A stretch of 45,509 nucleotides of DNA from a virus: the IMG/VR virus record IMGVR_UViG_3300032092_000062, positions 1 through 45,509 of that record; one strand, given 5' to 3'. Positions within the stretch are counted from its first letter, which is position 1. Every line of letters starts with the position of its first letter. Made by a program: the position numbers and the translations under genes. The notes under the pieces were generated by a model. The model worked only from the letters and a program-made list of their open reading frames with translations. It was not told where the DNA came from and did not search any database. Below are positions 5,635 to 34,987 of the stretch, piece by piece.

Positions 5635-5646
5635 TATTTATTTATC
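5635..5646 (-). promoter_or_regulatory. Tandem late promoter motifs GATAAATA/AATAAATA
   Basis: Two overlapping NATAAATA matches on the minus strand (5639-5646 and 5635-5642). They lie about 30 bases before the ATG of the 191-residue chaperone gene and overlap the TAA stop of the 1493-residue adhesin. They could give the chaperone extra late transcription. Confidence 0.5.
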
Positions 5647-10706: not shown

Positions 10707-13700
10707 TTATTCTGCTCTGTTATTTAGTCCGAATGGCGACTCTGCGAAAGCCATGTAAATGTATTTGCCACTGTTGTTTAAACCATATCCATTGGGTGCT
10801 CGAATCTTAAAGCCATTAGATAAAAAATCTAAACCATAAGAATTTGTTGCTTCTGCTGCAGCAGTATCTGCGAAAAGAGGAAACTTAACCTCGTTATTAG
10901 GTTCTCTGGCTGAGTCAAACTGATACCATTGTGTTGCAACATTGCTAGATTTAATCAAAACATATTTAGGTTTAAATCCTGTATGAACGACTGTACCACT
11001 GCTTGATTCATTACCAACATACAGTCCAAAGTCACTAAATCCTGGAACTTTTGCAAAAACATAAGCAATTAATCTACTTCCGCTAGTGTTAGTATAACTA
11101 TTTTGTGTGAAGAAACTACTTGATGTTGGCGCAGTTGAACCAAATGCACTTTGGTTTCTTGTGGTTGCAGATGTAAATATAAGCGTTGCACTAATACCTA
11201 AATCTTTATGATAGATGTCCCAGTTATATCCAACACTAAGATCTTTGACTATAATCATATCTGGAACAACACCAAGATTGTGAGAGATTGCTCTATTATT
11301 TGATCCATTACCAGTATATGAAACAATATTTAATCCAGCTATTGGTGATTGTTTCCACTGCCATGCAGCATAAGCAGTTCCAGCAGTATTATTATATCCA
11401 CTACCAAGACCAAAGCCATTATTATTAAAAGTAGTTAATCTATCATTATAATTATACTCGACAGCAGCAGAATTCGATTCTAGTCGTAGTCCTGGACCAC
11501 GAACGGAATCATATAAGTTATTATTTTCTGCAGAAGAACGATGTTTTATCCATACTAAATCTGGTTGAAAACCAGAATTTGTTATATTTCTAGAAGCACC
11601 AGTACCACCATAAACATTAATATCAAACCACTTATTTGGTGTAACTGCAGCTTTACCAACCATGGATGATCCCATTGCTTGCATATTAGTTGTGCACAAT
11701 GATTTGTATCCAGCTGGTGGAGTATATGCAAATGCACGTTGTCCAAAGTTAAACACAGATGTTGCACCAGTCACGTTGGCAGATGTTGCATGAGGAACAA
11801 GTAACCCTTGTCCTTTAGTTTCATAAGCACTATAAGATTGCGCAGTGCCAATTGCATTACCTTGTACATAAAACTGTATCGTTTTATTATCAGCATCTAC
11901 AGCAATTCCAAGTACTTGGTTATTACTTATTGCTGTGAGACTGCTTTGTCTAGTAGTGCCAGTTGAATCGAAAGAGTAAATGCTTCCATTACCATAACCA
12001 ATACCTTGTCCACCAATAGTTCCTGTATACCAAGTTTGGTCAGTTCTAAAACTAACTCCCGTGGTAAGATATTGTGCTCCTGCAGTTGGAGTAACTTCCC
12101 AATACCATTTACCAGTACTAAATGCCATTGTACCAAAACAGTAGTTGTTATTTCCGCCATTACCCAAATCATAAAAAGTTAAATTAGCATTACTAACAGA
12201 AGTTCCAGCTTGATAATATTGTTGATTCATATAACCCTGTAGAGGGTTTAATGTACAATAATTTCCTGGAACTACACCACCAACATCATTGGCAGTTGTA
12301 AATACATTGACTGGTGAATCGACCGCTGAGTCGTATGTTGTACCAGCAGTTAGAGAGATATTGTTTACAGTCCAGTCGTTATTTTTATTTGAAGCAACTG
12401 TTGGAATATATGGATCTACAGTTGATCCAAGATTTATTTGAGCACCCCAGATAAAAAGTCCATATCCTGCAGTTTCTCCTGTTGCTGTTGCGTAAGACAC
12501 AATTGCATTAACACCACCAGCACCAGTTCCTATATCAAGTGTAATGGCACATCTATACCATCCATTTCCAACAGATGTTATTGTTGGTATAGCACCAGCA
12601 AATGGACCACTTGTATTATCAATTTGCCCTGTACTTAAATTAAAATCACTATATGCGTATGTAGAACCATCACGTTTTTGAATATACAATCTAAGAATAG
12701 ATCTTTCTGCTGCTTTTGCATAACAAGAAAAGGTATAAACACCATTATTAATAGCAGTCACCATACCAGATTGGTATACTTGGTGATCGCCAGAAGTTCC
12801 AGTTGAACCTACTAACTTATCTGCTGTAGTTGTCCCATCTGGTGCAGTTGTTGCATTAGCTGAGACGCTGCTTTGATATTTTGACCAAGCTGCATTATCA
12901 AATTGCTCTGAGTATGTAAAATAATTTGAACCAACAAAATTTCTACCTAGATTTAATGTAGTTTGATTTTCACTAAATGGTAAGTAAAAACCATTAGTGC
13001 CATATCCACCAGTATAACGCTTTGGTTGCCAAATATTTGTGATTGAATCAAAATAACCAAAATATGATGGATCTAATGCTTGACCATCGATATGATTAAT
13101 TTCAGTTAGATAACCATCGTGTGCTTGACTGCTATTAGTAGTATATCCTGGAACCCCTATTCTATGACGGAACGTATGATTCCAACCAGTGAGTGCATTT
13201 TGAGAAACTTGAACTTCAATATTTAAAGGTTGCAAAACACCATTTACATAAATTTTAACACGTTCAACTGGAGCAGCTAATGTGGTATCAACAGCAACTA
13301 CAATATGATACCACGCATTTGGATCTCGAAAAAATGTTGTTGTTCTAACTACAAAATAACCTGCAGAACCACCACTATCATAAACACGAATGGCATTACC
13401 ATCACTTGATGACAAAAGATACATTTGGCATTCGTTTCCGCCATCTCCACCATATTGAGGAGATAAACCAAAATTAAATGTATTACCATTGGTAATTGAG
13501 CCAAATTTAACCCATGTAGAATAAGTCCAAGTTCTACGATTTCCAGAAACTGCTGGTGTGCGCTCAAGATAAGCAGATACAGGTTGTCTAAATCTTAGTG
13601 ATCTACCAATCTCATGGATACCATCAACTTCTTGCCAAGTACCAGTAGTATGGGCTTGATACTGATCCGCTAAATCCCAAACACCATTATTTGATGTTTG

Positions 13701-13754
13701 TGTTAATGCTACTGGATTACCAGTGATAAAATTTCCTGGATATCTTTTAGACAT
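10707..13754 (-). CDS. Large LamG/CBM/SPRY adhesin (1015 residues)
   Basis: Second virion adhesin of the pair. It has a LamG-like domain at about 50-225 (RTWTYSTWVKFG, AWYHIVVAVD, VKIYVNG). At about 276-450 is a carbohydrate-binding-like beta domain widespread in phage tail proteins (NYFTYSEQFDNAAW, APDGTTTADKLV, YTFSCYAKAAERS, GAQINLGSTVDPYIPT). At about 540-690 is a SPRY-like domain (GKWYWEVTP, GIAVDADNKTIQFYV, FGQRAFAYTPPAGYKSL). The C-terminal domain (PDLVWIKHRS, VRGPGLRLES, AWQWKQS, PDMIIVKD) is shared with the 1493-residue protein. Compared with that paralogue it has a single LamG and one SPRY but gains the binding domain, which suggests domain shuffling. Likely host recognition; the ligand is unknown. 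Confidence 0.8.
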   Translation of the reverse strand: MSKRYPGNFITGNPVALTQTSNNGVWDLADQYQAHTTGTWQEVDGIHEIGRSLRFRQPVSAYLERTPAVSGNRRTWTYSTWVKFGSITNGNTFNFGLSPQYGGDGGNECQMYLLSSSDGNAIRVYDSGGSAGYFVVRTTTFFRDPNAWYHIVVAVDTTLAAPVERVKIYVNGVLQPLNIEVQVSQNALTGWNHTFRHRIGVPGYTTNSSQAHDGYLTEINHIDGQALDPSYFGYFDSITNIWQPKRYTGGYGTNGFYLPFSENQTTLNLGRNFVGSNYFTYSEQFDNAAWSKYQSSVSANATTAPDGTTTADKLVGSTGTSGDHQVYQSGMVTAINNGVYTFSCYAKAAERSILRLYIQKRDGSTYAYSDFNLSTGQIDNTSGPFAGAIPTITSVGNGWYRCAITLDIGTGAGGVNAIVSYATATGETAGYGLFIWGAQINLGSTVDPYIPTVASNKNNDWTVNNISLTAGTTYDSAVDSPVNVFTTANDVGGVVPGNYCTLNPLQGYMNQQYYQAGTSVSNANLTFYDLGNGGNNNYCFGTMAFSTGKWYWEVTPTAGAQYLTTGVSFRTDQTWYTGTIGGQGIGYGNGSIYSFDSTGTTRQSSLTAISNNQVLGIAVDADNKTIQFYVQGNAIGTAQSYSAYETKGQGLLVPHATSANVTGATSVFNFGQRAFAYTPPAGYKSLCTTNMQAMGSSMVGKAAVTPNKWFDINVYGGTGASRNITNSGFQPDLVWIKHRSSAENNNLYDSVRGPGLRLESNSAAVEYNYNDRLTTFNNNGFGLGSGYNNTAGTAYAAWQWKQSPIAGLNIVSYTGNGSNNRAISHNLGVVPDMIIVKDLSVGYNWDIYHKDLGISATLIFTSATTRNQSAFGSTAPTSSSFFTQNSYTNTSGSRLIAYVFAKVPGFSDFGLYVGNESSSGTVVHTGFKPKYVLIKSSNVATQWYQFDSAREPNNEVKFPLFADTAAAEATNSYGLDFLSNGFKIRAPNGYGLNNSGKYIYMAFAESPFGLNNRAE

Positions 13755-15452: not shown

Positions 15453-18400
15453 TTATGCGCACGCTATAATTCGTAGATCTTTAATCTTAGGGATTGCAGA
15501 ACTATTTGTAGACTGCATAACGATCTTAACTGCAATTACATCAAATTGAGGTAAATTCTCTTCGGAGTAATCTACGTCAATGAAGGTTGTATCCCCATTT
15601 TGAACCTTAACGATTGCAGTATCTGGGCTAGTTAAAGACCAGTTAATTCTATCAAAATCTAGAGTAGATCCAACAGGAGAAGTTTTGTAGTAAACCAATA
15701 CATTGGCTTCTTGCGGGATATTACCAGCGTATTTAATTCTAAAGAATGTAGATGGATTAGCCAGAGTAATTGCTCGTGAAACATACTTATTTATTGAAGA
15801 ACTACCGATTGGAGCAATCTCGTCTACGAACAGAGTTCTTACAACAACAGTGGTTCCAGAAACAGCGGATTCACCAGTAAAGTTAGCAGTTCTTTCAACA
15901 GTAATCGTTCCTGTACTTGAACCATCACCAGCAACACCAGTCACTAGATATGTTCCATTATTACCAGCAGTAGTCGAACCAGAAACAGTGATATATTTAC
16001 CAACTTGAATATTTGGCATTAACGCTGCAACAGAGGCATTTGAAGTAGTAATAGTTTTACCACTAAATGAGAAAGCTCCAGTTGCACCAGTAAATACTGT
16101 TCTATTATCAAGTGCAGATACGTTAATGTTAGATTCAGTTGGGCTATTAATCTTATTAGAAACTGCAATCAATGAAACTCTGTGAGTATCAATAATTGGC
16201 GATAGTGCATTATTAGTAGACTTAATAGTTGCCTGTAATGTTACAGTTTTACCAGAAGATTGATTAACTGTGGAAGCGACTACTTGTGGTGCAGCAAAAT
16301 AATTGTTGTTATTTGGAACAACACCCTTATATGTACCATACACATATGGAGTTTCACCACCATCTACTGATTTACCAGAAACTGTCTTCATACTGTAATC
16401 AACAGTTGTATCTGAGAAAACCTGTGCTTGTATTGAAGGAATTGCAGCATCATAGATTATGTTACTACTCGCACGAACTCCATCTCCACCACCATATCCA
16501 GTGCTAGTGGCATTAGTGCTAACAGTAATACAATAAGAGTCTAAATCAACATCACTAATTGTATGTTGGATTTGAGCATTAGTAGAAACATTAGTGTAAA
16601 TTTGAGTTACAGGGATTCCATTCATTGATGAAGCCAACTTATATGCAGCTGCAGATGCTACTGTTACAGAAGCATTAGCAGTTAAAGTCAAACTTGTATT
16701 GCTAGCAACTGATGCAATAGTGCCAATAACTTTATTGTCTGATGCACGAATAAATGTAGTTCCAACAGGATTTAGTATTGAATTGAATGATGTACCTACA
16801 CCAGTAACAGTAGTTCCAGAATCAGAACAAGTAAATGTACCTGTACCAGCAGTGCCTGTATAAACTGCAGTATTTATGTTATCAAAAACTACTTTCGAGT
16901 CTGTAAACATTCCATGATTTTGATGCCATACACGAACTTTATTAGTTCCGCTTGCAGTTTGGAATGGAGCTGTCTCAATTAAGTTAGTGGACAACACATC
17001 ATTAACGAACTCGACCTGACCAGTGCGTTCAATATCAAACTTGCAGCGATAAACTGTAAACTTCAAGTCTTGGTCTTGGTTGGCAGTCCAAGTAGTTGAG
17101 TTTTGTGATTTAAACAGAACACCAGCATATGGTTGTTCAGAAATAGTTCTTGAAGATGCAGGAATTCGATCGCCCATCTGAGAGATCCAAACTTTATAAT
17201 TATTTGAATCTGACGATAATACAATAGCATATTCTTGCGCATCCTGAACATAAACAGGAGATGGGAATACAAAGGTGGTTGGAGTGTCATACTTAGGATA
17301 AGAAGCACCAGAACCATCTGTCATGGCAACATTTGTAGCTGACAGGTTAACTTGACTTGGCATTAATGTTACTTTAGAGAATGGAAGAACCTTTTTCCCT
17401 GGATATCCATTAACAACTTCACGAATTTCCAAATTGACTGGTATTGCAGAATCTTTAGTAGCAAAGAAAATATCAACTTTACTTAAGAATGCTCCACCTG
17501 GAGATTGTACCAAGAATGTCTGCGCAAGAGGATCCCACCAAGTATAGTAAGAATTAAGAAGACGATTTGATGTATTAGTTACTGTGGTGCTCTCATTAAC
17601 AACTTCTTGAACAATAGTTGCATTACGCACAGAGTTAATAGTTTGTTGTCTAGTTTGAAGAGTACCAGTAGCTTGGTATTGAACTTTTGCAGATGATGTT
17701 GATTGACCATCAGAAGTAGTAACATCTAATAATTTAAATTCACGAGTACCTGTGCGGAACTTAATAGAATCTTCATTTGGAATCCAGAAAATAAGATCCA
17801 AATCACCAGCGAAGTTAGATATTAATGAACCACCCTGTGAACCATTAGTCGGCATAGTACCGCTAATAGTTGCAGTTGCACCAGAGCCAGTACCAAAGGC
17901 AGTAATAGTTTCGCCAGATGTAAATGTTCCTTTAATGTTTACGATATGCAAACGACGAACACCTGTATCTTCGTTGTAATCTTTACCAATAACTACAGCA
18001 GTTGCACTAGAAGTACCTCCAGTAATTCTATCACCAATATTCAAACACATATTACCAGAAGTATCATTATACAAAACACCAGCAGGTAAATTATTAATAA
18101 TACGTGCAGTGTCTGTTGCATCAATACCAGCGTTCTTTGATGTATCAAAGTCTGGAGAAGTTGCTGTTGGTAATGTATATGTTAGATAAGAAGATGGAGT
18201 GCAATAATTAGATACAGCTGTATTATCAAAGAACGGATAAAAACGAGTATTTGGTTTTAATCCTTTAACTTGCACTAATACATTTCGTTGACGAATATAT
18301 GGAATAACAGCAGTTGAGATAACTTTATCATCAACAACTTGTCTGTCCATTGTGACTTGAAGTGATGTTTTAACACCAGAGCGAGCCATTCCAACATCTT

Positions 18401-21400
18401 GTGCAACAGTTTGATATTGAGCCCATGAATACCAGTTTCTTCCTGATGATGAAGTTTCCCATACATTAAGATTACGCTCTGCGCCAACCCATGTAGTTTG
18501 CCATGCGTTCCATACAGTGCCAAGAGCACCAGCTTTTTCAGCCAGAGTTGCAATAGTATTATAGTTACCCTCTACGTTGCGAACAATATCTGGAGCCTTC
18601 ACTGTTTCAAACCAATCATCTGATGATGGGTTTATACGAATATTACCAAGGAATGTGAAAATAGCAAATGGATTAATGTTTTCTATACGAGATGCATACT
18701 GTTGGGTGACGAGTGGAATATCTTCTTTAACTGGTAATGTAATAAGATCACCATAAAGTTTATATCCATCAGTTAATCGATTTGCGTCACTACTTTCGTT
18801 TTCTACAAGGTTTACGTTATTCATTGTATAGAATGGACGCAATTCACCTTGTTCCATATCAATAGAACATAGGTAATCTGGTGAAGTTGTATTACCAACA
18901 TTATGTCCTGTGAATGAATCTACAATAAATCCGTTTTTAAATCTTTCTAGACCATTAGAGTCAGTGACAGAAAGAGATTTTGTTTCTTGTTCTAATAGAG
19001 ATAAAGAAGTATAGTATTCTAGATTATCAATACGCTTTTCTAGTTTACCAATATCACGCATTGTATAACGCTTATTGTCAACTTGTTGAACAATAACATT
19101 TTTATTTGTTGTGCCAAATGTATATGGTTCAAGATTTAATTTGTAAAGAACCATACCAATATTTGGATCAGATGGTTCTACAGGATTTAAAGAAGATACA
19201 CCTTTAATGCCAATAAATGTACCACTAGTATCTATAGCAATTTTATCATTACGTGCAAGATAATATGAATAATCCACAGTTAAATCTTGACCACGTTTTG
19301 GTAGTAGTGAGAATGATGAATTTGCACCATTAAAAGTTACACCACCATCACCAATTCTTGGACGGAAATCGATAACATCACGAAGAGAGTAACCATCATA
19401 AGATGGAACATCATTAGTTTTAATACTGGTATCAATCGGGTATGAATTTTTAGTAAAATAATCTCCAGTACCATGCTCAAACCAATCAAAAGATATCGTG
19501 ATTGGGGCAGATGGAGGAGAAAAAGATTGTTTTAATATTAGTTTACCAAGATCATAATGAGTGTCTCTTTGACCATTGTCTAGATCATAACGATCTGAAA
19601 TATCAATAGTATAACTACCAGTTGGTGATGCATATGTTCCAGTATCCATCTTAACAGATTTAATACGAAGAATGTCTGCTTTACCAAGTGATAGTACAGG
19701 TTTAGATGCAGTGGCTTGTGTTGTGAAAGTTACAGTTGCGGAAGCTAAAGTTTTACTCTTTTCTCCAATATCAACTTTCTTAATAGTTGCCATAACAATA
19801 AAATCTTTGCTGGCATAAGTGTCTGGTAACGTAAATGTGATAGAAGAACTACCACCAGAAGTATATGATGTTGGGCTAACTACAGCACCACCTGCACTAC
19901 CATCATTATAAACAAGAATATAATTATCAGTTTCAGCAGGGTCAGCAAATACACCTGATGAAGTTGTTAGAGGCAAAGTACAAAATCCACCTGAACCAGA
20001 ACCAGTCGATCCAGTTAAATATTGCATACCATAGTAAATAATATTTAAAGTTGTACCATCAGCTGCACGAACTGATTTAATTGCATAGTTTGGTAAAGGA
20101 TATATTAAACAATCGTTTTGTGGTTCTTGTACATTGGTTTGAATAAGACTAATAATACCACCATCAACAGTCACATTAGAATCAACAGTGATTTGTTCGT
20201 TGTTTGTAATTGTAACAACTCTACGACGATTTGATGTAGAACCAACATAAATGTAATCACCAACTTTAAGAGCGGGACTGGCAACTGGGTTTGTTGTTCC
20301 GCCAGAAAACGCAGTACCAACACCATAAATGGTAGTTGATGCACCACGAGTCCCTGGATAAGAACTGTATGTTGTTCCAGAACCAATTAAATTAGTAGTT
20401 AGTTCTTTAATGTCAGCAGTAAAGTTTAAATTTGTATCTGAACGACTATAATAGAATGATTTTACATCTCTGGCAAAATCGTATCCTGTTGTGAGTTGTA
20501 CATCAAACAGATAAACTTTATAAACAGCAGTTTGTGTACCAACAGTTCCATTGTCCCACTCAATACCACGAATGCGTGCAGTGCCAACTGCAGTTGCGCT
20601 CGATGGAGCTACACCAACTGAAGAAGTAAATCTATTGTACAGAGTTACTGCTGGCATTCCTGATGTGGAATCAAATGGCGGTAAAGAATTAATATTAGTA
20701 ACTAGAACATAATTTCCAATTGGTGTAGTTAGATAACTATCATTTACTTGAACGTAATCACGTGCTTTATCAATAGTTACATATTCAGTAACAATCTTCT
20801 CAAGTTCATAACCTTGAACGTATGCTTTTCCTGGCTCTAAACCAATAGCCAGTTTATCGTCACTACCTGGATTTGATCCATCTGTTGGACTATAGATACC
20901 ACGATTGTAGTATGGAGTCAAATTATATTCCCACGATACACCACCAGTTGTAGAACTGTCTGATACAATTCCAGTAGTGTGAACTGGAGCAACAGTTTTT
21001 GATGTTGCATTATTTGTGGCAACGTAAGTTATACCACCATTTGTTACAACATCACCGATTAAATATGCAACATCAGTTACCCATGCGCCACGATTATTAT
21101 TTCTGTGCTCACGAACATCTATGTGGAATGGTCTAACAGTATAATTACCAGATTCATCAAATGTACGACGTGCTAAAGTTTTTTCAATTTCAGCGTAGGT
21201 AGTTGTTGTAACTTGTTGTTGAACTAATCCAGAATTTGTTGTGAGCAATTCAATAAAATTAGAATCTGAATCAATATCCAATGATGCTACATAAGTTTGA
21301 ACATATCGTAAACTTGCACTACCATTTGAAGCAGTGCCAGATGTATGGCTTGGTGCTGTTGAACTAGTAGTTCCAGCAATAGTTACTTGAAAGTAAAGGT

Positions 21401-22211
21401 TTCCACTCTTAACGATGTCGCCTACTGCAACTTTAGTATTTGCAGTCCAAGAATAAGCACCAGTTAATAATGGAATTTTTGTTAGGATTAAATCAATATA
21501 ATAACGATGCGCACCTGGAGCTGCATAGTTATATGAAGTCTGAGCATTGTCCAGTAGAGTTTCGTCATCTTCTGGAGTTGTTTTAACTTCATTAACTTTT
21601 AAACCAACACGATATGTTGGTGTATTGTTATACTTGTCAAGAATAATAGATTGCGCATCACAAAGAACAAAGTGACCATTAACATAGAAAACACCACGTT
21701 CAATAGTTGCGGCAGAACCAACACCAGTAGCATTGGAAGCAATAGCTTGAACTGTATATGTACCTGTTCCGCTAGTTGTCGTAATAACTTCACTATTAGA
21801 GAATGTTTTGGTTAAATTATTATCTGCAGCTGAACTATAACGAACATAAAGAGTTGTTTCGTCAGATCCTTCTTCACGAACAACTTTTAATACTGTTGCT
21901 TCTACACCAGAATCACCTTGAATTTTTCTTCCAGCAAAATTATCGATATAAGTTTCAATAACGTCTGAACCATAAAAAGTTTGTAATTTTACATAGTTAT
22001 AATTTGAATCAAGAGAAACTTGTCCAGGAATAACCATCGCACCATTTTTAAAAATGTGGTTACCTTGATAAGCAATCTGCTGTTGTAAAATTGTCTGTAG
22101 CTGAGTTAATTCTCTGGCTTGAACAGCAAAAGATGGACGGAATAAAATTCGATAGAATTTATTATTCTCATCAAAGTCGTCATTATACGGTTCTGTATTG
22201 AAGTCTAACAT
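15453..22211 (-). CDS. Giant DUF4815-type baseplate/tail-fibre structural protein
   Basis: 2252 residues, the largest gene here. The N-terminus (MLDFNTEPYNDDFDENNKFY, FRPSFAVQARELTQLQTILQ, NHIFKNGAMVIPG) is typical of DUF4815 proteins of marine T4-like phages. These are virion proteins encoded after gp8 where T4 has gp9/gp10. Two insert modules at about 254-303 and 377-430 (SWTANTKVAVGDIV, GTTSSTAPSHTSGT; GAWVTDVAYLIGDVV, VAPVHTTGIV) are the same carbohydrate-binding-like module repeated in gp8. The middle has KLEKRIDNLEYYTSLSLLEQETKSL, a short coiled coil. The C-terminal part is Ser/Thr-rich beta sequence. It may link baseplate and fibres. Its exact T4 equivalent is uncertain. AGGATAAG precedes the ATG. 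Confidence 0.75.
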   Translation of the reverse strand: MLDFNTEPYNDDFDENNKFYRILFRPSFAVQARELTQLQTILQQQIAYQGNHIFKNGAMVIPGQVSLDSNYNYVKLQTFYGSDVIETYIDNFAGRKIQGDSGVEATVLKVVREEGSDETTLYVRYSSAADNNLTKTFSNSEVITTTSGTGTYTVQAIASNATGVGSAATIERGVFYVNGHFVLCDAQSIILDKYNNTPTYRVGLKVNEVKTTPEDDETLLDNAQTSYNYAAPGAHRYYIDLILTKIPLLTGAYSWTANTKVAVGDIVKSGNLYFQVTIAGTTSSTAPSHTSGTASNGSASLRYVQTYVASLDIDSDSNFIELLTTNSGLVQQQVTTTTYAEIEKTLARRTFDESGNYTVRPFHIDVREHRNNNRGAWVTDVAYLIGDVVTNGGITYVATNNATSKTVAPVHTTGIVSDSSTTGGVSWEYNLTPYYNRGIYSPTDGSNPGSDDKLAIGLEPGKAYVQGYELEKIVTEYVTIDKARDYVQVNDSYLTTPIGNYVLVTNINSLPPFDSTSGMPAVTLYNRFTSSVGVAPSSATAVGTARIRGIEWDNGTVGTQTAVYKVYLFDVQLTTGYDFARDVKSFYYSRSDTNLNFTADIKELTTNLIGSGTTYSSYPGTRGASTTIYGVGTAFSGGTTNPVASPALKVGDYIYVGSTSNRRRVVTITNNEQITVDSNVTVDGGIISLIQTNVQEPQNDCLIYPLPNYAIKSVRAADGTTLNIIYYGMQYLTGSTGSGSGGFCTLPLTTSSGVFADPAETDNYILVYNDGSAGGAVVSPTSYTSGGSSSITFTLPDTYASKDFIVMATIKKVDIGEKSKTLASATVTFTTQATASKPVLSLGKADILRIKSVKMDTGTYASPTGSYTIDISDRYDLDNGQRDTHYDLGKLILKQSFSPPSAPITISFDWFEHGTGDYFTKNSYPIDTSIKTNDVPSYDGYSLRDVIDFRPRIGDGGVTFNGANSSFSLLPKRGQDLTVDYSYYLARNDKIAIDTSGTFIGIKGVSSLNPVEPSDPNIGMVLYKLNLEPYTFGTTNKNVIVQQVDNKRYTMRDIGKLEKRIDNLEYYTSLSLLEQETKSLSVTDSNGLERFKNGFIVDSFTGHNVGNTTSPDYLCSIDMEQGELRPFYTMNNVNLVENESSDANRLTDGYKLYGDLITLPVKEDIPLVTQQYASRIENINPFAIFTFLGNIRINPSSDDWFETVKAPDIVRNVEGNYNTIATLAEKAGALGTVWNAWQTTWVGAERNLNVWETSSSGRNWYSWAQYQTVAQDVGMARSGVKTSLQVTMDRQVVDDKVISTAVIPYIRQRNVLVQVKGLKPNTRFYPFFDNTAVSNYCTPSSYLTYTLPTATSPDFDTSKNAGIDATDTARIINNLPAGVLYNDTSGNMCLNIGDRITGGTSSATAVVIGKDYNEDTGVRRLHIVNIKGTFTSGETITAFGTGSGATATISGTMPTNGSQGGSLISNFAGDLDLIFWIPNEDSIKFRTGTREFKLLDVTTSDGQSTSSAKVQYQATGTLQTRQQTINSVRNATIVQEVVNESTTVTNTSNRLLNSYYTWWDPLAQTFLVQSPGGAFLSKVDIFFATKDSAIPVNLEIREVVNGYPGKKVLPFSKVTLMPSQVNLSATNVAMTDGSGASYPKYDTPTTFVFPSPVYVQDAQEYAIVLSSDSNNYKVWISQMGDRIPASSRTISEQPYAGVLFKSQNSTTWTANQDQDLKFTVYRCKFDIERTGQVEFVNDVLSTNLIETAPFQTASGTNKVRVWHQNHGMFTDSKVVFDNINTAVYTGTAGTGTFTCSDSGTTVTGVGTSFNSILNPVGTTFIRASDNKVIGTIASVASNTSLTLTANASVTVASAAAYKLASSMNGIPVTQIYTNVSTNAQIQHTISDVDLDSYCITVSTNATSTGYGGGDGVRASSNIIYDAAIPSIQAQVFSDTTVDYSMKTVSGKSVDGGETPYVYGTYKGVVPNNNNYFAAPQVVASTVNQSSGKTVTLQATIKSTNNALSPIIDTHRVSLIAVSNKINSPTESNINVSALDNRTVFTGATGAFSFSGKTITTSNASVAALMPNIQVGKYITVSGSTTAGNNGTYLVTGVAGDGSSTGTITVERTANFTGESAVSGTTVVVRTLFVDEIAPIGSSSINKYVSRAITLANPSTFFRIKYAGNIPQEANVLVYYKTSPVGSTLDFDRINWSLTSPDTAIVKVQNGDTTFIDVDYSEENLPQFDVIAVKIVMQSTNSSAIPKIKDLRIIACA

Positions 22212-22240: not shown

Positions 22241-25144
22241 TTAAAAACGAATAACTGTTCTTAATGTAACTGTCTGATCGGCAGTAGGAGTAAATGCTGC
22301 TCGATTATCGATAAACATTAAGTCTCCAGAGTATTTATCTGCTGTTGGAGGAGTGACTGCGCTGGCAGTAAACACATCGGCAGCTGCATTGGTAAAGTTA
22401 TTACCGATAGCAATACTTGCATTATCTATCGCTTGCACCAACATAGCAGTGCCTGTATTTGTAACAATTCTAAAACGAGTTGAATCGCTGGATTTTGTAA
22501 TAATAGAATCCGCTGGGAACAATGCAGTATTTGTAGTAGCAGAAATCACCCAGCAAGTAGAAGCCAAAATAGAAGTTAAACTATTGGTGCTTCCATATTG
22601 TCTAGGATTCTTAATAATACCCAGTTGACGATAATCGTTATTAACATCAAATCCTTGATTTTTATCTTGGCTGATGTTACTATAGAACATTAATGTTCTT
22701 GCATAAAAGTTATTTAGTGCTTCTTTAGCATGACCGCCAAATGGAGAAATAATGGCTCTGGCTTTTGCTCCATAACCAGTTCCAGAAATAACAACATTTG
22801 CATAACGATATCCAGAACCATAAGAAGTCATGGTAAGTTTAGTAACTGCACCATTAACAACAGTTGCTGTAGCAACAGCACCTGTACCATCACCAGTAAT
22901 AGTAACAGTTGGTGTACCACCATAACCCCACCCACCAGAAATTACTGGAATATTCATAATACGACCATCAACAGTAAGCAGTTCAATAGTCGCTTGAAGC
23001 GTATTAACATCACCTGGAGATAGATCAGCAGAAATTAATGCGCCAGTGCCATTACCAGTCACGTTTAAGTTTGCAAAAGTATATCCAACTCCTGGATCAT
23101 CGATCTGCACTGAGGTTAATTGTCCACCATCAAAAATTGGAATTAGTCTGGCAGTAGAATCTTCTGACGTAAAAGTAATATTTGCGCCTGTACCTGGAGA
23201 TCCAGACACAGTAATAGTTGGTTTTGAAGAGTATCCTGCACCATACTTAATTGTTGAGGTAGCTGTAGCTTGAACACCAACATATGTTAGTGTTGCTGTA
23301 CCATTTGACACTGTTCCAGATAAGTGTGTTGGAGCAGTTGAAGCATGAGTGGTTCCAGCTGATGCAACAGTGTAAAGTCTATTTGAAAAATAAATCTGTT
23401 GACCAATAGTTACTGCAGTCGATGCAGTCCACTGTGTTCCAATGTTAATAGTTGGAGCAGCATTGTATCCAAGTCCTGGATCTGTAACATCAAACCGAAT
23501 GATAGAAGTTACTGATAGAATGGCTTTTGCTGTTGCTGGATATCCAACCCAAGTTAAGGTTGCTGTGCCGTTAGCGACTGCACCAGTTGTATGACTCGGT
23601 GGAGTTGAAGCATGTGTAGTTCCAGCTGTAGTTACAGTATACAAATTATTTGCATAATAAACTTGAGAATTTAATGTTAATGCAGTTGATGCAGTCCACA
23701 AAGTCCCAACAGTAATAGCTGGTGCAGAAGTATATCCAGAACCACCAGATAAGACTTGAATAGTTCTTAATAATCCATATAATGTTAATGCTGTAATAGT
23801 TCCAGAGCCATTGATTGTTGCTGTGGCAGTTGCTTGTGTTCCAACATATTTTAAAGCAGCAGTACCATTGGCAACTGTATTGAAACGATGAACTGGACCA
23901 GTAGTAGTAGTAGTGCCAGAAACAGCTACCTCATAAATGTTATTATTAAAAGATAACTTTTGTCCAGTTAAAACTAAAGTGCTGGCTTGCCAAGCAGCGA
24001 CACCAGTAAATGGTGGATCAATTGAAACAGTTGGACTAACATATCCACTACCACCGCTGGAAAGTGTTATTCCAGTTAAGTATATTGGATCTGCTTGATT
24101 ATTTCCATCACCCTGTACGGTAATTGTTCCAGAAGTATATCCAGAACCACCAGCATCTACACGAATAGTTTGAAGTTGTCCACTTGAATAAAATTGATTA
24201 CGTAATGCAGTTATAACAGGAATGTAATCGTCTGTCACAAATTTATTGCGCAAAGCAATAGGAACATTATACATGAACTTCCACATATAACCATCGGATA
24301 AAACAATAGGATCAACTGTTGTTGATGTTGGTTTAACAGTGGAAACAGCATTACGATTATTATCTAAACACTTGTATACGTTAAATTCATCTGTCACTAC
24401 ATAAAATAGTGAGTCTTCTAATTTTTGGAATCCATTTGGAGAAATTGTAACAACTGCGCTTGCTGCTGCATTGGTTCCACCACCACCAGCAATAATGCAA
24501 GTTGGAATGCTGGTATATCCTGAACCTCTAGCAGTTAGTGTAATACCAGCAACACTTCCTTCAATTCGTGTTGATGTGGCAGTTGCGCCAGTACCACCAC
24601 CATTGCTAACACTGACCCACTGAAGTGGAGCAGTACCATTAGTGACAGTACCAGAAGTGTGCGTAGGAGCAGTAGTTCCAGTAACACCAGTGGTGGTTAC
24701 AATATAATAATTGTTACCTGATTTAATCAACTTACCTAAAATATAAGAAGTAGATGCTGTCCAATTAACTGAACCTTGAGATCCAATATAAACGAACGGA
24801 TCAGAACCATAACCAAAACCACCAGCTGTTAAATTAACACCCTGCACTTCAGTGGAATATTGATCATCGTATTGATCATAAATTGTGCCACTGGTCCAGT
24901 TATAGCGTGGGATAACATACGCTATATCTGTTGGTTTAATTTCTTTCATTGTAATTATATCATTACGTGAAGAAAATTCATATGCAAGACTATCTGTTGG
25001 ATATGGAGGTGTTAGTTCATCTGTCCAAGTTACTGTTTTCCCCAAATAGTAGTAGTATCTACTATGTCTAGTAACAACCTCATTGTATAGTCCATCTGCA
25101 ATAGAATTATGCAGAATAGACTTCATTAACGCAGATGTGGTCAT
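22241..25144 (-). CDS. 8: Baseplate wedge protein gp8, greatly enlarged
   Basis: 967 residues against 334 in T4. The gp8 core is recognisable in pieces: LTPPYPTDS and AYVIPRYNW near 45-82, then FYVVTDEFNVYKCLDNN and LSDGYMWKFMYNVP at 247-295, then GFDVNNDYRQLGIIKNPRQ at 831-849, then DLMFIDNRAAFTPTADQTV at 941-959, corresponding to the T4 C-terminus GEMIYMENRPPI. Between these are inserts at about 97-240, 325-800 and 855-935. The inserts hold four WTAST...GTxxxTAPTHxSGTVxNGTATLxWVG modules and about ten GxGYxxxPxIxIxG motifs. gp8 is a structural wedge component joining gp10/gp7 and gp6. The position after gp6 and the gp7-like gene matches T4. Confidence 0.85.
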   Translation of the reverse strand: MTTSALMKSILHNSIADGLYNEVVTRHSRYYYYLGKTVTWTDELTPPYPTDSLAYEFSSRNDIITMKEIKPTDIAYVIPRYNWTSGTIYDQYDDQYSTEVQGVNLTAGGFGYGSDPFVYIGSQGSVNWTASTSYILGKLIKSGNNYYIVTTTGVTGTTAPTHTSGTVTNGTAPLQWVSVSNGGGTGATATSTRIEGSVAGITLTARGSGYTSIPTCIIAGGGGTNAAASAVVTISPNGFQKLEDSLFYVVTDEFNVYKCLDNNRNAVSTVKPTSTTVDPIVLSDGYMWKFMYNVPIALRNKFVTDDYIPVITALRNQFYSSGQLQTIRVDAGGSGYTSGTITVQGDGNNQADPIYLTGITLSSGGSGYVSPTVSIDPPFTGVAAWQASTLVLTGQKLSFNNNIYEVAVSGTTTTTGPVHRFNTVANGTAALKYVGTQATATATINGSGTITALTLYGLLRTIQVLSGGSGYTSAPAITVGTLWTASTALTLNSQVYYANNLYTVTTAGTTHASTPPSHTTGAVANGTATLTWVGYPATAKAILSVTSIIRFDVTDPGLGYNAAPTINIGTQWTASTAVTIGQQIYFSNRLYTVASAGTTHASTAPTHLSGTVSNGTATLTYVGVQATATSTIKYGAGYSSKPTITVSGSPGTGANITFTSEDSTARLIPIFDGGQLTSVQIDDPGVGYTFANLNVTGNGTGALISADLSPGDVNTLQATIELLTVDGRIMNIPVISGGWGYGGTPTVTITGDGTGAVATATVVNGAVTKLTMTSYGSGYRYANVVISGTGYGAKARAIISPFGGHAKEALNNFYARTLMFYSNISQDKNQGFDVNNDYRQLGIIKNPRQYGSTNSLTSILASTCWVISATTNTALFPADSIITKSSDSTRFRIVTNTGTAMLVQAIDNASIAIGNNFTNAAADVFTASAVTPPTADKYSGDLMFIDNRAAFTPTADQTVTLRTVIRF

Positions 25145-30023: not shown

Positions 30024-30323
30024 CTATCCAATAAACGAATCTTGCGATCCTTCAGCTATTGTATCTCCACAGGCAATATCGTCTCCGATTCGAGCGACTT
30101 TTTTACCTTCAAAATAGAAAGTGGAGGAAGAAGATGATACTTTTCGAGCAGAATTAGGATGAGTAGTTATTCCGCAGGTATGTGCCTGATACTGAGTATG
30201 TCCCAGTAACTGAATAGCCTTACCATTGAAGAAAGACTTAGTTGTGTATGGTCCAGCAGCTGGAGTCGGAGGAAAACATCCGTGTCCTGTTGATTGTTGT
30301 GCTTCTAAAGATATCGCTGGCAT
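30024..30323 (-). CDS. PAAR-repeat spike-tip protein
   Basis: 99 residues. It shows the PAAR pattern with Pro-Ala and Gly turns and spaced His/Cys residues: STGHGCFPPTPA, SFFNGKAIQLLGHTQYQAHTCG, then FYFEGKKVARIGDDIACGDTIAEGS. PAAR proteins form the metal-binding sharpened cone capping the gp5/VgrG needle (T4 gp5.4). His14, Cys16, His49 and Cys84 are candidate metal ligands. It lies between the gene next to gp5 and gp25, and begins by overlapping the stop of the 192-residue gene by one base. Role: the membrane-piercing tip of the tail spike. Confidence 0.88.
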   Translation of the reverse strand: MPAISLEAQQSTGHGCFPPTPAAGPYTTKSFFNGKAIQLLGHTQYQAHTCGITTHPNSARKVSSSSSTFYFEGKKVARIGDDIACGDTIAEGSQDSFIG

Positions 30324-30901
30324 TATCTACTCTGAGTTAAAGTTACTAATTGCTTTAATAGGGTTTGTCCTGTGGTCCAGTTTAAATCTCGAATATTAAT
30401 AGTGTAATTTTTTGTTGCAACGATATCCAAGTAGTTCGGATCTAAAGGATCATTAATAAATGCTTCTGCTCTGTAATTTCTTATAATGTTTCTGGATGTA
30501 TCAGCTTTAAATGATGTTGCTTCATACACTTCGGAATTAATAACTTTATCCCACGCACCATTGTCTGGATCAGTAACTACAGTTTTTATTTGTTTATTAA
30601 AGGTTTTATATTGTATTGTATCATTAAAAACTCTTTTAAAAAATCCTGCAACAATTCCTGGATCTCCTGTAGTAAAAGTAACAGTGGTAGGATTTCCTTC
30701 CAATGGAACTATTCTCACAGTATAACGAATTTCTTCTGTTCCTTCTACGGGAGGATTTGCCAGTGGGTCACCCTCTCCAGCAGGTTCAATATATGTAATA
30801 CTATGGCTGAATGATTCTAATTCAACATGAGTTCCAAGCAAAGTTTCAGTGGGTGTCCATACTCCAGCCATACTAAACCTTACTTGGTCTCCAAATGCCA
30901 A
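30323..30901 (-). CDS. Conserved-position baseplate protein of unknown function
   Basis: 192 residues, not recognised. It has segments SFSHSITYIEPAGEGDP, EEIRYTVRIVPLEGNPTTVTF, GFFKRVFNDTIQYKTFNKQIKTV and NIIRNYRAEAFINDPLDPNYLDI. No membrane helix, signal peptide or catalytic motif is obvious; the mix of beta strands and charged turns looks structural. It overlaps the end of the gp5 gene by 29 bases and the PAAR gene by one base, so it is made with the spike and tip. A role in spike or hub assembly, or connecting spike to wedge, is inferred from this tight coupling. Confidence 0.6.
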   Translation of the reverse strand: MAFGDQVRFSMAGVWTPTETLLGTHVELESFSHSITYIEPAGEGDPLANPPVEGTEEIRYTVRIVPLEGNPTTVTFTTGDPGIVAGFFKRVFNDTIQYKTFNKQIKTVVTDPDNGAWDKVINSEVYEATSFKADTSRNIIRNYRAEAFINDPLDPNYLDIVATKNYTINIRDLNWTTGQTLLKQLVTLTQSR

Positions 30902-33710
30902 CTAAAGATCCATTTCCTGGAAGTTTATATCCACTTGGCCAAGATAATGAAACATCTCCATCGGATGGGTTATTTGTTTTAGCCTTTGGTGTTTGATTAC
31001 CACCAACAAAAGATAATGCATTACCTTTGTTTGAATACACAAAGTTTACGTGACCATAACTCCAGAGAGCGATATCTCCAGGTTCAGCCTGACTAAAGTC
31101 AGTGATTGGTGTTGCTTTCCATCTATCTGGATTTGATTTAATTGCTCGTGCTCCAGCTTCTTGAACATAACGATATCCGCACTGCTTTAATGTCCAGTTT
31201 ACAAAACCCATGCACCATGCAGTTTGATCAGTAGTCCAATATGGATTAGTCTTAGAATATCCAAGGTCTGCCCAGATGCGAGTAATATTAGCATTACTTG
31301 GTTTACCACCTTGTCCTGTTTCTCTCCAATAACCAGACTCTGCCAACTGAAGTTGTTTAGTGAGGAATTGATATAAGTCAGAAGCAGTTGCTCCAGCAAT
31401 TAAACTAGCACCGCTCTCATCAGTCTTAGGTGTTCCAGCGTAGTTTTCTTTAACTCCACCTGCAGCAGCTGCTGCATTTTTATATTTAGTTGGGTTTGCA
31501 ATATAGTCATCAACTAACTTTTGATTCTCTTCATTAAGAGCATACTTTAAATCTGTTGGTGGACTTGGACGAACAGGAGTAGATAAAGTACCAAATTGAT
31601 CTGGACGACCATCAGTAAACTCTGGGGCAGTCAATGCTAGTTTAGAATCTTTAACATCTACACCTGCGCCAGCAGATCCTTCCTGTCCATGAAACTCGGA
31701 TCCATCCACATTAACATTACTACCTGCTTTAATATTTTGCGAACCACTTGCTTCCAAGAACATATCAGCGTTTGATTTAATACTTGCGTTTTGTAATGCC
31801 TGCATATTAAGAGCTGAGCCTGCTTTGATAGAAGTCACTGCTGCAGACTGCATATCAATAGAACTATTACCTTTAACATTAAAGTTACCATCAACTTGTA
31901 AATTGTAATCTCCACCAACGACCATATTAAGATCGCCACCAATACCAATATCGGCATTGTTGTTTAGGTTAATAGTAGATGGACCATCAACTTGAATATC
32001 GGCTGCACCTTGTACAAGAATGTTTACGCTATTTCCAACTGTTAGGTTACATGAACCACCGATATAAATTGCACCATTTCTATCAATAATAGTATAACCA
32101 TCGCCAACGATTTTATTAACTTGAGTACCATTGGCATCAATGTCAATAAATGACCCAGTCTTGTGATATAGACTTACGTTTTCGTTTAAAGGTGTATCAT
32201 CTAAAACAAACAAGTGTCCTGATTCAGATTCATAAACTTTATTGTAAGGATATAATCCACCAAATGGAGCAAGAGGTTGTTCCCATGAATCTCCATCATT
32301 TGCTGCAGGAATTTGTTTTGTTCGTGTTGAGTCTTTAAACTCAATTGCAGTTTCTTTTTGTACTTGTCGTGCAAGACGATTAGTATCTGGCTCATCCAGT
32401 AAATGTCTCAGTGGATACTTACCCTTTGGATCTTTAAAACCAACTGTTTTAGCATCTGAACGATCTTCCAACAGTGCTGCTTGTTTAGCAGGTGGTAGAT
32501 CTTTAACTTCTTCCTTTGTATAAACTTTTTGATCATCAGCTGCAGGCTTATTTGTAGAATCAACAGTAACTGTTGCGCCCAAAAAGTATTCATAGAATTT
32601 CTGTTTCTTTGCATAACCAGTACCATTGGCATCTGCACCAGTACGCTTCAATGCTGTCTGAAAATATCCTGGATCGTTAATATCATGTTTAACATTTAAC
32701 GAATAGAAAGCAGCAGTTGCAAGAGCAGAAGTTTTTGGATCATCAATTAATGATTGCGGATTATTAACAAAATCTACTGGAATGCCTTTTGATAATAAAA
32801 ACTTTTGTAATTGTTGATACAAAGATTTACCAGTAATTTGGTTGAATCCACGACCATAGTACTTTGCACCATCTTCAGGATCTTTATGCCCAACTAACTT
32901 ACCATTACCTTCTGGTGAATAAACTTTTCTAAAGAAGTCTGCCTTTGTACCTTGCCATTTAACATATGGCTCTGCAGACTCTGGTGTTGGAAAAGATCTT
33001 TTAAAAATTGCAGAAAGAGAACTGGCTTTTGAATAGAAAGATCCTTCTTCAATACATAACCATGCAGATTCACCACCACAAATGCCGAGAACAGCTGCTT
33101 TTGCATACTTACTTGTTAATCCAACTTTGTCACATGCCTCAATCAAATACTTAATATTTTGTTCAGCGATGGTAGGATTATTTGTAGAACCAGCTGGTGG
33201 CTTTGTAGGAATAGATGCATTTAATGCAGAATCTGATGGTTTATTTGGAGTCTTTTGTTCAGTTAGATTTGGCTGAGTAGTTTCAGAAGTAGTTGCTGCA
33301 GTAGATCCAACAGTGATAGGAGTGCCATCACTAGATGTAATAGGAGTACCACTACTATCTACTAATACTCCACCATCGGTAACAATAGCACCTGACTGTT
33401 CAATATCAACTGAAGACTCTGATAGTTTACTTTGTGGAATACCACCAACAGTACCAATCATCACTGGTTGTTGTTGATCTTGATCTGCAAATAAAATAAT
33501 TACAGTTGTTCCTGGGACTGGACCAGTTGGAGTCCAGCCGATACCATTCATCGCTGCAGAAATAACTGGCTGCATCGGTGTAGCCCATGGAAGATCTATT
33601 GTTGGCAGTAAACTTTTATCATGAGTGTGCAAACCAACGATACGAACTTGGCAACGACCAAGTTTCAATGGATCTTCTCTATTTTCTACAACACCATAGT
33701 AAAAATTCAT
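30873..33710 (-). CDS. 5: Tail spike gp5 with GH19-like and CHAP-like hydrolase domains
   Basis: 945 residues against 575 in T4. Order: N-terminal OB fold (1-100; LKLGRCQVRIVGLHTHD, LPWATPMQPV, GTTVIILFADQDQQQPVMIG); Ser/Thr linker; glycosidase-like domain at 181-378 with GICGGESAW (Glu214), EEGSFYSKAS (Glu221/222) and GAKYYGRGFNQITGKSLYQQ, typical of GH19-type lysozymes; linker; gp5C-type triple beta-helix at about 520-670 (repeated IDVxG/NMVVGGDYNLQVDG); C-terminal CHAP/NlpC-like amidase-endopeptidase domain at 775-945 with TAWCMGFVNW (Cys833), YGHVNFVYS (His887) and VGGNQ (Asn905). It should pierce the outer membrane and cut peptidoglycan at injection. It overlaps the gp27-like gene by one base. 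Confidence 0.88.
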   Translation of the reverse strand: MNFYYGVVENREDPLKLGRCQVRIVGLHTHDKSLLPTIDLPWATPMQPVISAAMNGIGWTPTGPVPGTTVIILFADQDQQQPVMIGTVGGIPQSKLSESSVDIEQSGAIVTDGGVLVDSSGTPITSSDGTPITVGSTAATTSETTQPNLTEQKTPNKPSDSALNASIPTKPPAGSTNNPTIAEQNIKYLIEACDKVGLTSKYAKAAVLGICGGESAWLCIEEGSFYSKASSLSAIFKRSFPTPESAEPYVKWQGTKADFFRKVYSPEGNGKLVGHKDPEDGAKYYGRGFNQITGKSLYQQLQKFLLSKGIPVDFVNNPQSLIDDPKTSALATAAFYSLNVKHDINDPGYFQTALKRTGADANGTGYAKKQKFYEYFLGATVTVDSTNKPAADDQKVYTKEEVKDLPPAKQAALLEDRSDAKTVGFKDPKGKYPLRHLLDEPDTNRLARQVQKETAIEFKDSTRTKQIPAANDGDSWEQPLAPFGGLYPYNKVYESESGHLFVLDDTPLNENVSLYHKTGSFIDIDANGTQVNKIVGDGYTIIDRNGAIYIGGSCNLTVGNSVNILVQGAADIQVDGPSTINLNNNADIGIGGDLNMVVGGDYNLQVDGNFNVKGNSSIDMQSAAVTSIKAGSALNMQALQNASIKSNADMFLEASGSQNIKAGSNVNVDGSEFHGQEGSAGAGVDVKDSKLALTAPEFTDGRPDQFGTLSTPVRPSPPTDLKYALNEENQKLVDDYIANPTKYKNAAAAAGGVKENYAGTPKTDESGASLIAGATASDLYQFLTKQLQLAESGYWRETGQGGKPSNANITRIWADLGYSKTNPYWTTDQTAWCMGFVNWTLKQCGYRYVQEAGARAIKSNPDRWKATPITDFSQAEPGDIALWSYGHVNFVYSNKGNALSFVGGNQTPKAKTNNPSDGDVSLSWPSGYKLPGNGSLVGIWRPSKV

Positions 33711-34987
33711 TATTTGTTCCTATTCATATTCATCTGTGATGATTCTTTAATCAATTCCATATAACACTCATGTTTCTCTTTATCAATAACATGGTTAATT
33801 GCTGCAACAATGTAATAACCTGAAAACATCTTATCAGTTAGATCTTGATCTTTCTTACTGGCAGGTTCAACTCTGTACAGAATAATGGCAATCTTTTGAC
33901 CAACAGTATAGTCAGTTCTACCTGGAACTGTAATATTAATCTTGTTGGCTTCTGCTAATTTTAAAGTAGAAATTCTTTCTTGATTGGAGTGAGCAGCAGT
34001 GACATCTCCAAACCCATTAAAGTTACCATAATTTTTAGGATAAATTATCATGGTAGAGTTATTTCTAAAAATAACTTTATTAGAATTTATTGGAAATTTG
34101 TTTAAATGCTTTTGGTCATTAAAACGATCCAACATATTATAGTTTTTTACATTGTAAGTTTTCTTAGTAATATCGTAGGAAAACTGTCTTGACGCAAGCA
34201 TACCGTTTCTAAGTCTGTCCATGTAATCATGAGCAACTGGAATACTTATTGAAAGAATACGTTTATAATCTTGGTTTACGTTACGGACATCTCTACCATC
34301 TGGTAGTTTATCACGAGTATACTTGTCATAGACGAATTCAGAGGTAACTGTGTTTTGATATAATCTCTCTAAACTAATAAAGTAAAACCCATCTCTGTTT
34401 TCAAAAAACACATAGTTTGGAGTTTTATTTTTGTTGACAGCAGTGTCAGAAAGATAGTTAAGATTTTTAATTGGACTCCAATAATTTGAAATGTATTTCA
34501 CGCTATTGTTTGTTGGTTCAACGATAATCTTTTTCTCACTCTCAAGACCATAATTTTTATCTTTAACAAATGCCTCAACTAAATCTGAAATTTTACCTGA
34601 AAAGGTTTTACTAACTTTCTTATTCAAGTCAGCAAGAGATTCAATCGAAATAAAATGTATCTGGTAAACAACACTCTTATCACCAAGATGTTCTCTATCA
34701 GTTAATTTGTAAATGTAATATCTACCTTTGATACTAGAATCTTTTAAAGTTGGAGTTGTTACATCTAAATCAAGATATTCTTCTCCAACGAAGGGGAAAA
34801 GATTAATTAAGTCAAACGATTCTCTAACAACAATACTTCCAGTTATAAATGGAGCAAAAATGTCTTCATAAAATTGAATGTTTAAAACTTGAGCTGTGAT
34901 GTCCTGATAAAACCCAGTTGGTGTTACTATCTGGACTTTATTAATGCTAACATCACCAGCAAATCTCAACTGTTGACTGGTTTTCAT
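33710..34987 (-). CDS. 27: Baseplate hub protein, gp27-like
   Basis: 425 residues (T4 gp27: 391). The N-terminus (AGDVSINKVQIVTPTGFYQDI, VLNIQFYEDIFAPFITGSIVVRES, FPFVGEEYLDLDV) and the later block (YYIYKLTDREHLGDKSVVYQIHFIS) have the hub/gpD-type beta-barrel pattern seen in gp27 proteins. The C-terminal part includes INITVPGRTDYTVGQKIAIILY and MFSGYYIVAAINHVI, another hallmark of hub proteins. gp27 trimers hold the gp5 spike and link it to the tail tube. The neighbourhood between gp53 and gp5 fits. The stop overlaps the gp5 start by one base and the start overlaps the gp53 stop by one base. Confidence 0.8.
   Translation of the reverse strand: MKTSQQLRFAGDVSINKVQIVTPTGFYQDITAQVLNIQFYEDIFAPFITGSIVVRESFDLINLFPFVGEEYLDLDVTTPTLKDSSIKGRYYIYKLTDREHLGDKSVVYQIHFISIESLADLNKKVSKTFSGKISDLVEAFVKDKNYGLESEKKIIVEPTNNSVKYISNYWSPIKNLNYLSDTAVNKNKTPNYVFFENRDGFYFISLERLYQNTVTSEFVYDKYTRDKLPDGRDVRNVNQDYKRILSISIPVAHDYMDRLRNGMLASRQFSYDITKKTYNVKNYNMLDRFNDQKHLNKFPINSNKVIFRNNSTMIIYPKNYGNFNGFGDVTAAHSNQERISTLKLAEANKINITVPGRTDYTVGQKIAIILYRVEPASKKDQDLTDKMFSGYYIVAAINHVIDKEKHECYMELIKESSQMNMNRNK

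Follow-up and report, generated by a model that had tools for sequence, protein, structure and literature searches.

A T4-type central spike with two predicted peptidoglycan hydrolases and an exchangeable domain beyond the beta-helix

The window (the whole stretch of DNA analysed here, positions 1 to 45,509 of the virus record IMGVR_UViG_3300032092_000062) is a virus fragment of 45.5 kb. Its genes include a baseplate cluster of the T4 type, with families for the tail tube cap, for several wedge subunits, for PAAR and for the baseplate hub; the fragment also encodes a single-stranded DNA-binding protein and a helicase loader. The minus strand carries the gene for a gp5-type central spike that is likely to combine two peptidoglycan hydrolases, a GH19 enzyme in the middle and a CHAP enzyme on the side of the tip, the latter in an exchangeable slot past the beta-helix. 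A preliminary description of the DNA had placed this reading frame at 30873-33710 and numbered its putative catalytic residues. The coordinates were confirmed and the numbering is right (E214 in GGES, GRGFNQITG at 286-294, C833 in TAWCMGF, H887 in YGHVNF and N905 in GGNQ). The spike is laid out as follows.

30873..33710, minus strand: gp5-type spike protein, 945 residues, in the order OB, GH19, beta-helix, linker, CHAP (open reading frame, translation, Pfam, PHROGs gp5 families, 78 related loci)
33423..33710, minus strand: N-terminal OB fold, residues 1-96 (Pfam Gp5_OB, E = 1e-20; T4 gp5 match, 4e-20 over residues 1-96)
32571..33170, minus strand: GH19-type glycoside hydrolase domain, residues 181-380 (profile, predicted structure, Foldseek, VIA)
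33069..33071, minus strand: codon of E214, the first catalytic Glu by alignment (conservation, endolysin alignment)
33045..33047, minus strand: codon of E222, the second catalytic Glu by alignment (conservation, endolysin alignment)
31641..32303, minus strand: spike region with the triple-stranded beta-helix, about residues 470-690, borders approximate (phrog_430, T4 gp5 match)
31386..31640, minus strand: linker from helix to CHAP, about residues 691-775 (between matched domains; C-terminal part of low model confidence)
31428..31454, minus strand: conserved linker motif VKENYAGTP, residues 753-761 (count of the pattern [VC]KxN[YF][AP]GTP)
30876..31385, minus strand: CHAP/NlpC-P60-type hydrolase domain, residues 776-945 (Pfam CHAP, model and VIA, invariant C833/H887/N905)

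The OB fold and the beta-helix region identify the protein as a T4-type spike. The helix is recognized by sequence, through phrog_430 (2e-86) and a match to T4 gp5 at 465-607; Gp5_trimer_C is matched weakly, below the Pfam cut-off. T4 gp5 shares the OB fold, a glycosidase between OB fold and helix, the triple-stranded beta-helix and a separate gene for the PAAR cap. Unlike the window protein, it has a GH24 lysozyme in the middle and no catalytic domain past the helix, as had been correctly stated for T4. The middle GH24 of the T4 subtype is absent from the window and GH19 stands there instead; the protein is a gp5 of another subtype, built of ordinary parts in an unusual arrangement of the T4-type tail lysozyme spike.

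A profile built from an alignment of 28 relatives of the middle domain (A1) matches the PDB sequences of GH19-type phage endolysins (8p8e, 5e-14; 4ok7, from SPN1S, 3e-13). In this alignment E214 and E222 coincide with the two Glu residues of the GH19 endolysins, E214 at the position of the HES-type Glu. Both are found in 39/39 relatives, the GRG..Q.T residues in 40/40, and all are invariant in A1. The AlphaFold2 model of the domain is of high confidence (pLDDT 94.1). Foldseek places the type VI secretion system (T6SS) effector TseP first (E = 8.7e-6); VIA gives Z = 18.6 to 7r6s and Z = 16.3-16.9 to KTN6 gp46, the SPN1S endolysin (16.5), a Pseudomonas aeruginosa GH19 endolysin and TseP. TseP has E654 and E663 as its active residues, and mutation of the latter inactivates it (PMC11893102). 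The ratio of non-synonymous to synonymous substitution (dN/dS; simple NG86 counts against three relatives of 91-93% identity) is 0.05-0.07, and the domain is under purifying selection. In the long relatives L196 and L197 (records G014 and G015) a separate frame of 208-229 residues has a 33-38% match to the gp5 GH19 domain and is probably the lysis enzyme; the pairing echoes T4, whose two lysozymes belong to one family.

The C-terminal domain is matched by Pfam CHAP (PF05257) at residues 826-899 with 29.1 bits, over the curated cut-off of 26 (E = 1.4e-6). C833 is present in 32/32 relatives, and H887 and N905, the latter within GGNQ, are present in every row of a 26-row alignment of CHAP domains (A2). 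The model of residues 740-945 (pLDDT 77.6) has a weak linker and one weak loop. For this model the top VIA matches are NlpC/P60 and CHAP enzymes (Z = 9.7 to 8; the first aligns at 3.1 Å over 122 residues), and the list includes hydrolase domains of contractile systems and tail tips (diffocin, phi812, Andhra). By Foldseek the best match is MepS (E = 0.011), followed by CHAP enzymes. With dN/dS of about 0.12, this domain too is under purifying selection. Models lacking a hydrolase fold, or the catalytic residues, had been named beforehand as the outcome that would speak against two hydrolases. Both domains were inspected for this: the middle one is predicted to have the GH19 fold with aligned and invariant catalytic residues, and the one after the helix an NlpC/CHAP fold with all three residues invariant among CHAP-bearing relatives. 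These sequences and models are most naturally read as a single spike that bears both a glycosidase and a peptide- or amide-type hydrolase.

One scan of viral contigs yielded 78 loci related to the window gp5. The full-length relatives form two sets, those that end in CHAP and those of about 1020-1110 residues that end in another, M15-type domain. The latter share the OB-GH19-helix core with the window protein and have the M15-type domain at the place of CHAP. Its alignment (A3) has the invariant pattern SxHxxGxAxD ... LEY ... WxH expected for M15 zinc peptidases, and residues 784-922 of gp5 from Synechococcus phage BUCT-ZZ01 match an endolysin PHROG (1e-15). In a quick, unrooted tree of the spike core, the 31 spikes that have both GH19 and CHAP form one group (support 88). 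Three M15 spikes are nearest to them (joint support 98), and 15 more M15 spikes and BUCT-ZZ01 lie outside; one row, L084, has its CHAP in the middle and is no post-helix case. Because the tree sets the CHAP spikes among the M15 spikes, the distal slot has been swapped, and the topology would fit a single M15-to-CHAP replacement in the lineage of the window gp5. The same CHAP (56-58% identity) occurs in L177 and L187 on a gp5 core only 31-40% identical, which suggests horizontal movement of the module. GH19 is not detectable in either protein, nor is any middle lysozyme in L187. In cellular genomes 0/31 pattern hits encode a relative. In Melnitz-3, gp5 (L081:5962-9005) is split into two genes, the first with OB and a VanY-like match and the second with the helix and the M15-type domain, possibly two peptidases on one split spike.

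The linker-CHAP module is also found on a PAAR tip protein (L107:5527-6504; Pfam PAAR 27.8 bits, cut-off 27; phrog_281, 5e-9). This gene stands beside ribonucleotide reductase genes on a phage contig of 14530 bases that is represented by both L107 and L079. Two other CHAP carriers, L112 and L116, have weak PAAR matches; the match is clear only in L107. In proteins of 270-290 residues near nrdA/nrdB (L156, L160, L161, L163, L164, L166, L174, L176 and L182-L185) the same CHAP follows a short N-terminus with an NVFVNN-type segment and no family match. That most of these short carriers are PAAR proteins was considered and dropped: their N-termini showed no match to phage PAAR proteins when the two were compared as profiles, and the suffix _PAAR on some rows of the CHAP tree is a label given by length only. 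The tested contigs of short carriers (up to 159 kb) have no detectable gp5 OB or PAAR match, and gp5 OB is likewise unmatched in the two that measure 159 and 135 kb. On the CHAP tree three changes of carrier are required, but a one-clade test does not reject a single clade of short carriers (p = 0.09). Of the rows that cover the linker, 19/24 have the motif [VC]KxN[YF][AP]GTP, from gp5 and tip carriers including the PAAR-fused L107, against 0/8 M15-type gp5 proteins; linker and CHAP therefore appear to travel together. In 65/81 CHAP loci (a redundant set) a separate PAAR gene is found near gp5, downstream of it. The genes on either side of the spike in the window are the following.

30024..30323, minus strand: separate PAAR tip protein (gp5.4-like), 99 residues (PF05488 over cut-off; phrog_281, 4.6e-23)
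33710..34987, minus strand: neighbouring tail protein, 425 residues, upstream of gp5, at the position of a gp27-like hub (phrog_350 tail protein, 7.8e-78)

The preliminary description had further suggested that the C-terminal domain might act at the needle tip next to the PAAR protein. The PAAR fusion in L107 and the PAAR gene in 65/81 loci lend this part of the proposal indirect support. The other course it had raised was release of the domain. In one such scheme CHAP would be cut off at the conserved linker, while the phage assembles or enters, and diffuse freely as a periplasmic enzyme. The linker motif precedes CHAP in gp5 and PAAR carriers alike, and T4 gp5 itself is reportedly a cleaved precursor (by the title of Kanamaru 1999). 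No protease site was identified, however; the motif might just as well serve for docking, and fusion to PAAR fits tethering as well as release. We regard cleavage as unlikely. Considerably less probable is that CHAP serves the spike itself, as a self-processing peptidase or a folding or capping module, and is no wall hydrolase. Proteolysis is conceivable because the structural relatives comprise Cys peptidases as well as amidases, but M15-type, endolysin-related domains replace CHAP in the same slot, CHAP is present on a PAAR protein without gp5 parts, and gp5 of the Ackermannviridae has CHAP at the position of the lysozyme. Least probable of all is that one of the two domains is degenerate, which would leave the spike a single working enzyme. 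Spikes with one enzyme or with none are viable, because S-RIM2 gp5 shows neither a GH19 nor a CHAP domain by Pfam and L187 has no detectable middle lysozyme, but both catalytic sets are invariant and dN/dS is about 0.12 or less in both domains.

A spike with two peptidoglycan hydrolases and an exchangeable post-helix slot thus remains the likely reading. Several observations weigh against it. For the window sequence alone Pfam GH19 (residues 279-336) scores 16.4 bits, short of its cut-off of 25.5; this doubt is removed by the match of the A1 profile to GH19 endolysin structures. The CHAP model is of only middling confidence and has no Foldseek match under E = 0.001. In 16/81 CHAP loci there is no PAAR match downstream. 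The M15 assignment draws on the motif and on weak matches of 12/13 members to Peptidase_M15_3 (best 6e-4). The M15-type profile matched no PDB sequence, so that an M15 identity of the post-helix domain is likely, not proven.

We infer the activity of both domains, the bond cut by CHAP, its place at the tip and the order of action in the following scheme. Like GH24 in T4, the GH19 domain at the side of the beta-helix base would cleave the glycan strand. In T4 the PAAR protein gp5.4 binds the end of the helix and forms the tip (PMC4576200). In the window a linker of about 85 residues and CHAP continue the chain and a separate PAAR gene is kept, so each chain of the trimer would probably hold one CHAP domain on a linker past the helix, and the three would surround the tip with its PAAR cap. 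When the sheath contracts, this tip would cross the outer membrane; the CHAP domains would be the first to reach the peptidoglycan, where they would cleave either stem peptides or the amide bond. The GH19 domains would follow, and both kinds of bond would be opened in one stroke. In related spikes the post-helix position, an exchangeable slot, holds a probable M15-type peptidase. The tip has the look of a docking site for wall-cutting enzymes, since relatives bear another enzyme there or carry CHAP on the protein that caps the tip.

In the T6SS an enzyme follows the spike in VgrG proteins that end in a wall hydrolase (V. cholerae VgrG3), or sits on the PAAR tip in PAAR-effector fusions. Such VgrG proteins resemble the window gp5 in the enzyme appended past the spike helix. 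In VgrG, by contrast, the gp27-like and gp5-like parts are one chain; the window gp5 is separate from the tail gene at 33710-34987, whose gp27-like hub identity is suggested by gene order, and belongs to a device for phage entry. By analogy, the best reading is that the window gp5, though no VgrG itself, functions in the manner of one that carries an effector at its C-terminus, as a phage counterpart of effector-bearing VgrG and PAAR proteins. TseP resembles it in its lysozyme domain, the best Foldseek match of the GH19 model, and in directing one protein at two bond types, since it joins an amidase to a lysozyme domain (PMC11893102); it differs in being an effector, not the spike itself, and in that its amidase is a Zn enzyme. 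A jumbo-phage survey describes phage PAAR proteins as standalone (PMC7824862).

The individual parts have precedents in phages. GH19 in a gp5-type protein is already known from BUCT-ZZ01 and Delftia phage PhiW-14. BUCT-ZZ01 gp5 (UTS51949.1), annotated only as a baseplate hub subunit, has the order OB, GH19, helix and C-terminal hydrolase (32% identity over residues 2-735), but its C-terminal domain is M15-type, not CHAP. PhiW-14 gp5 has a GH19 match (Pfam 3e-5, just under cut-off; phrog_181, 2e-87), and no C-terminal CHAP or M15 match was found in it. Cases of gp5 with CHAP in the middle are known from CBA120 (Ackermannviridae) and PhiSH19 (PMC3220722); in gp5 of CBA120 and of Atu_ph04 (Pootjesviridae), unlike that of the window, CHAP is the single enzyme and stands directly after OB, before the helix or without one. 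Judging by sequence, catalytic domains past the helix are not unique to the window phage, as BUCT-ZZ01 and Melnitz-3 carry M15-type ones. Searches of deposited phages with the C-terminal domain and two relatives found no post-helix CHAP; the gp5 records inspected among them have CHAP before the helix, or no helix. The family phrog_1259, which matches the C-terminus of the window gp5, was set aside as a precedent since the OB-CHAP proteins of Atu_ph04 and IC12 match it too. ORF207 of Vibrio phage ICP1 (L211:2710-3426) was also rejected, being a protein with peptidoglycan-binding and CHAP domains and without an OB or helix match; its annotation as gp5 tail lysozyme seems a misannotation. At the level of titles and abstracts the literature offered no description of a post-helix hydrolase on a T4-type gp5, which is weak evidence of absence, and the parts of the Melnitz paper reached with the terms tried make no mention of post-helix M15-type domains.

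Phage spikes are usually described with one lysozyme near the base of the helix. A second, exchangeable enzyme past it means that the tip itself may be enzymatic, and would give environmental T4-like phages a way to match the wall chemistry of their hosts. A pelagimyophage survey found gp5 strongly divergent and suggested that it adapts to the wall of the host (PMC7029224); exchange at the slot offers a concrete candidate for this. The loading modes of T6SS VgrG and PAAR proteins are then seen in phages as well. We are evenly divided on the broader proposal that T4-type spikes have a general slot for cargo at their distal end, with M15-type and CHAP cassettes exchanged among gp5 C-termini, spikes that lack a middle lysozyme and PAAR proteins; if true, it would be the phage form of the covalent cargo modes of the T6SS (VgrG and PAAR extensions), used for entry instead of killing.

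Some other genes of the window deserve mention. Between gp5 and PAAR lies a gene for 192 residues (30323-30901, minus strand) without a PHROG match and with relatives in only 30/81 CHAP loci. Two large tail-region proteins (5642-10123 and 10707-13754, minus strand) both match PHROGs 19943, 24898 and 27411 and look like paralogues. A baseplate-region protein of 967 residues (22241-25144, minus strand), which has a weak T4 gp8 match as well, contains several copies of a repeat of the form WTAST...Y.V...GTT...AP.H.SGT..NGTA.L.YVG that resembles a surface- or sugar-binding module; a 2252-residue protein at 15453-22211 has stretches related to this repeat.

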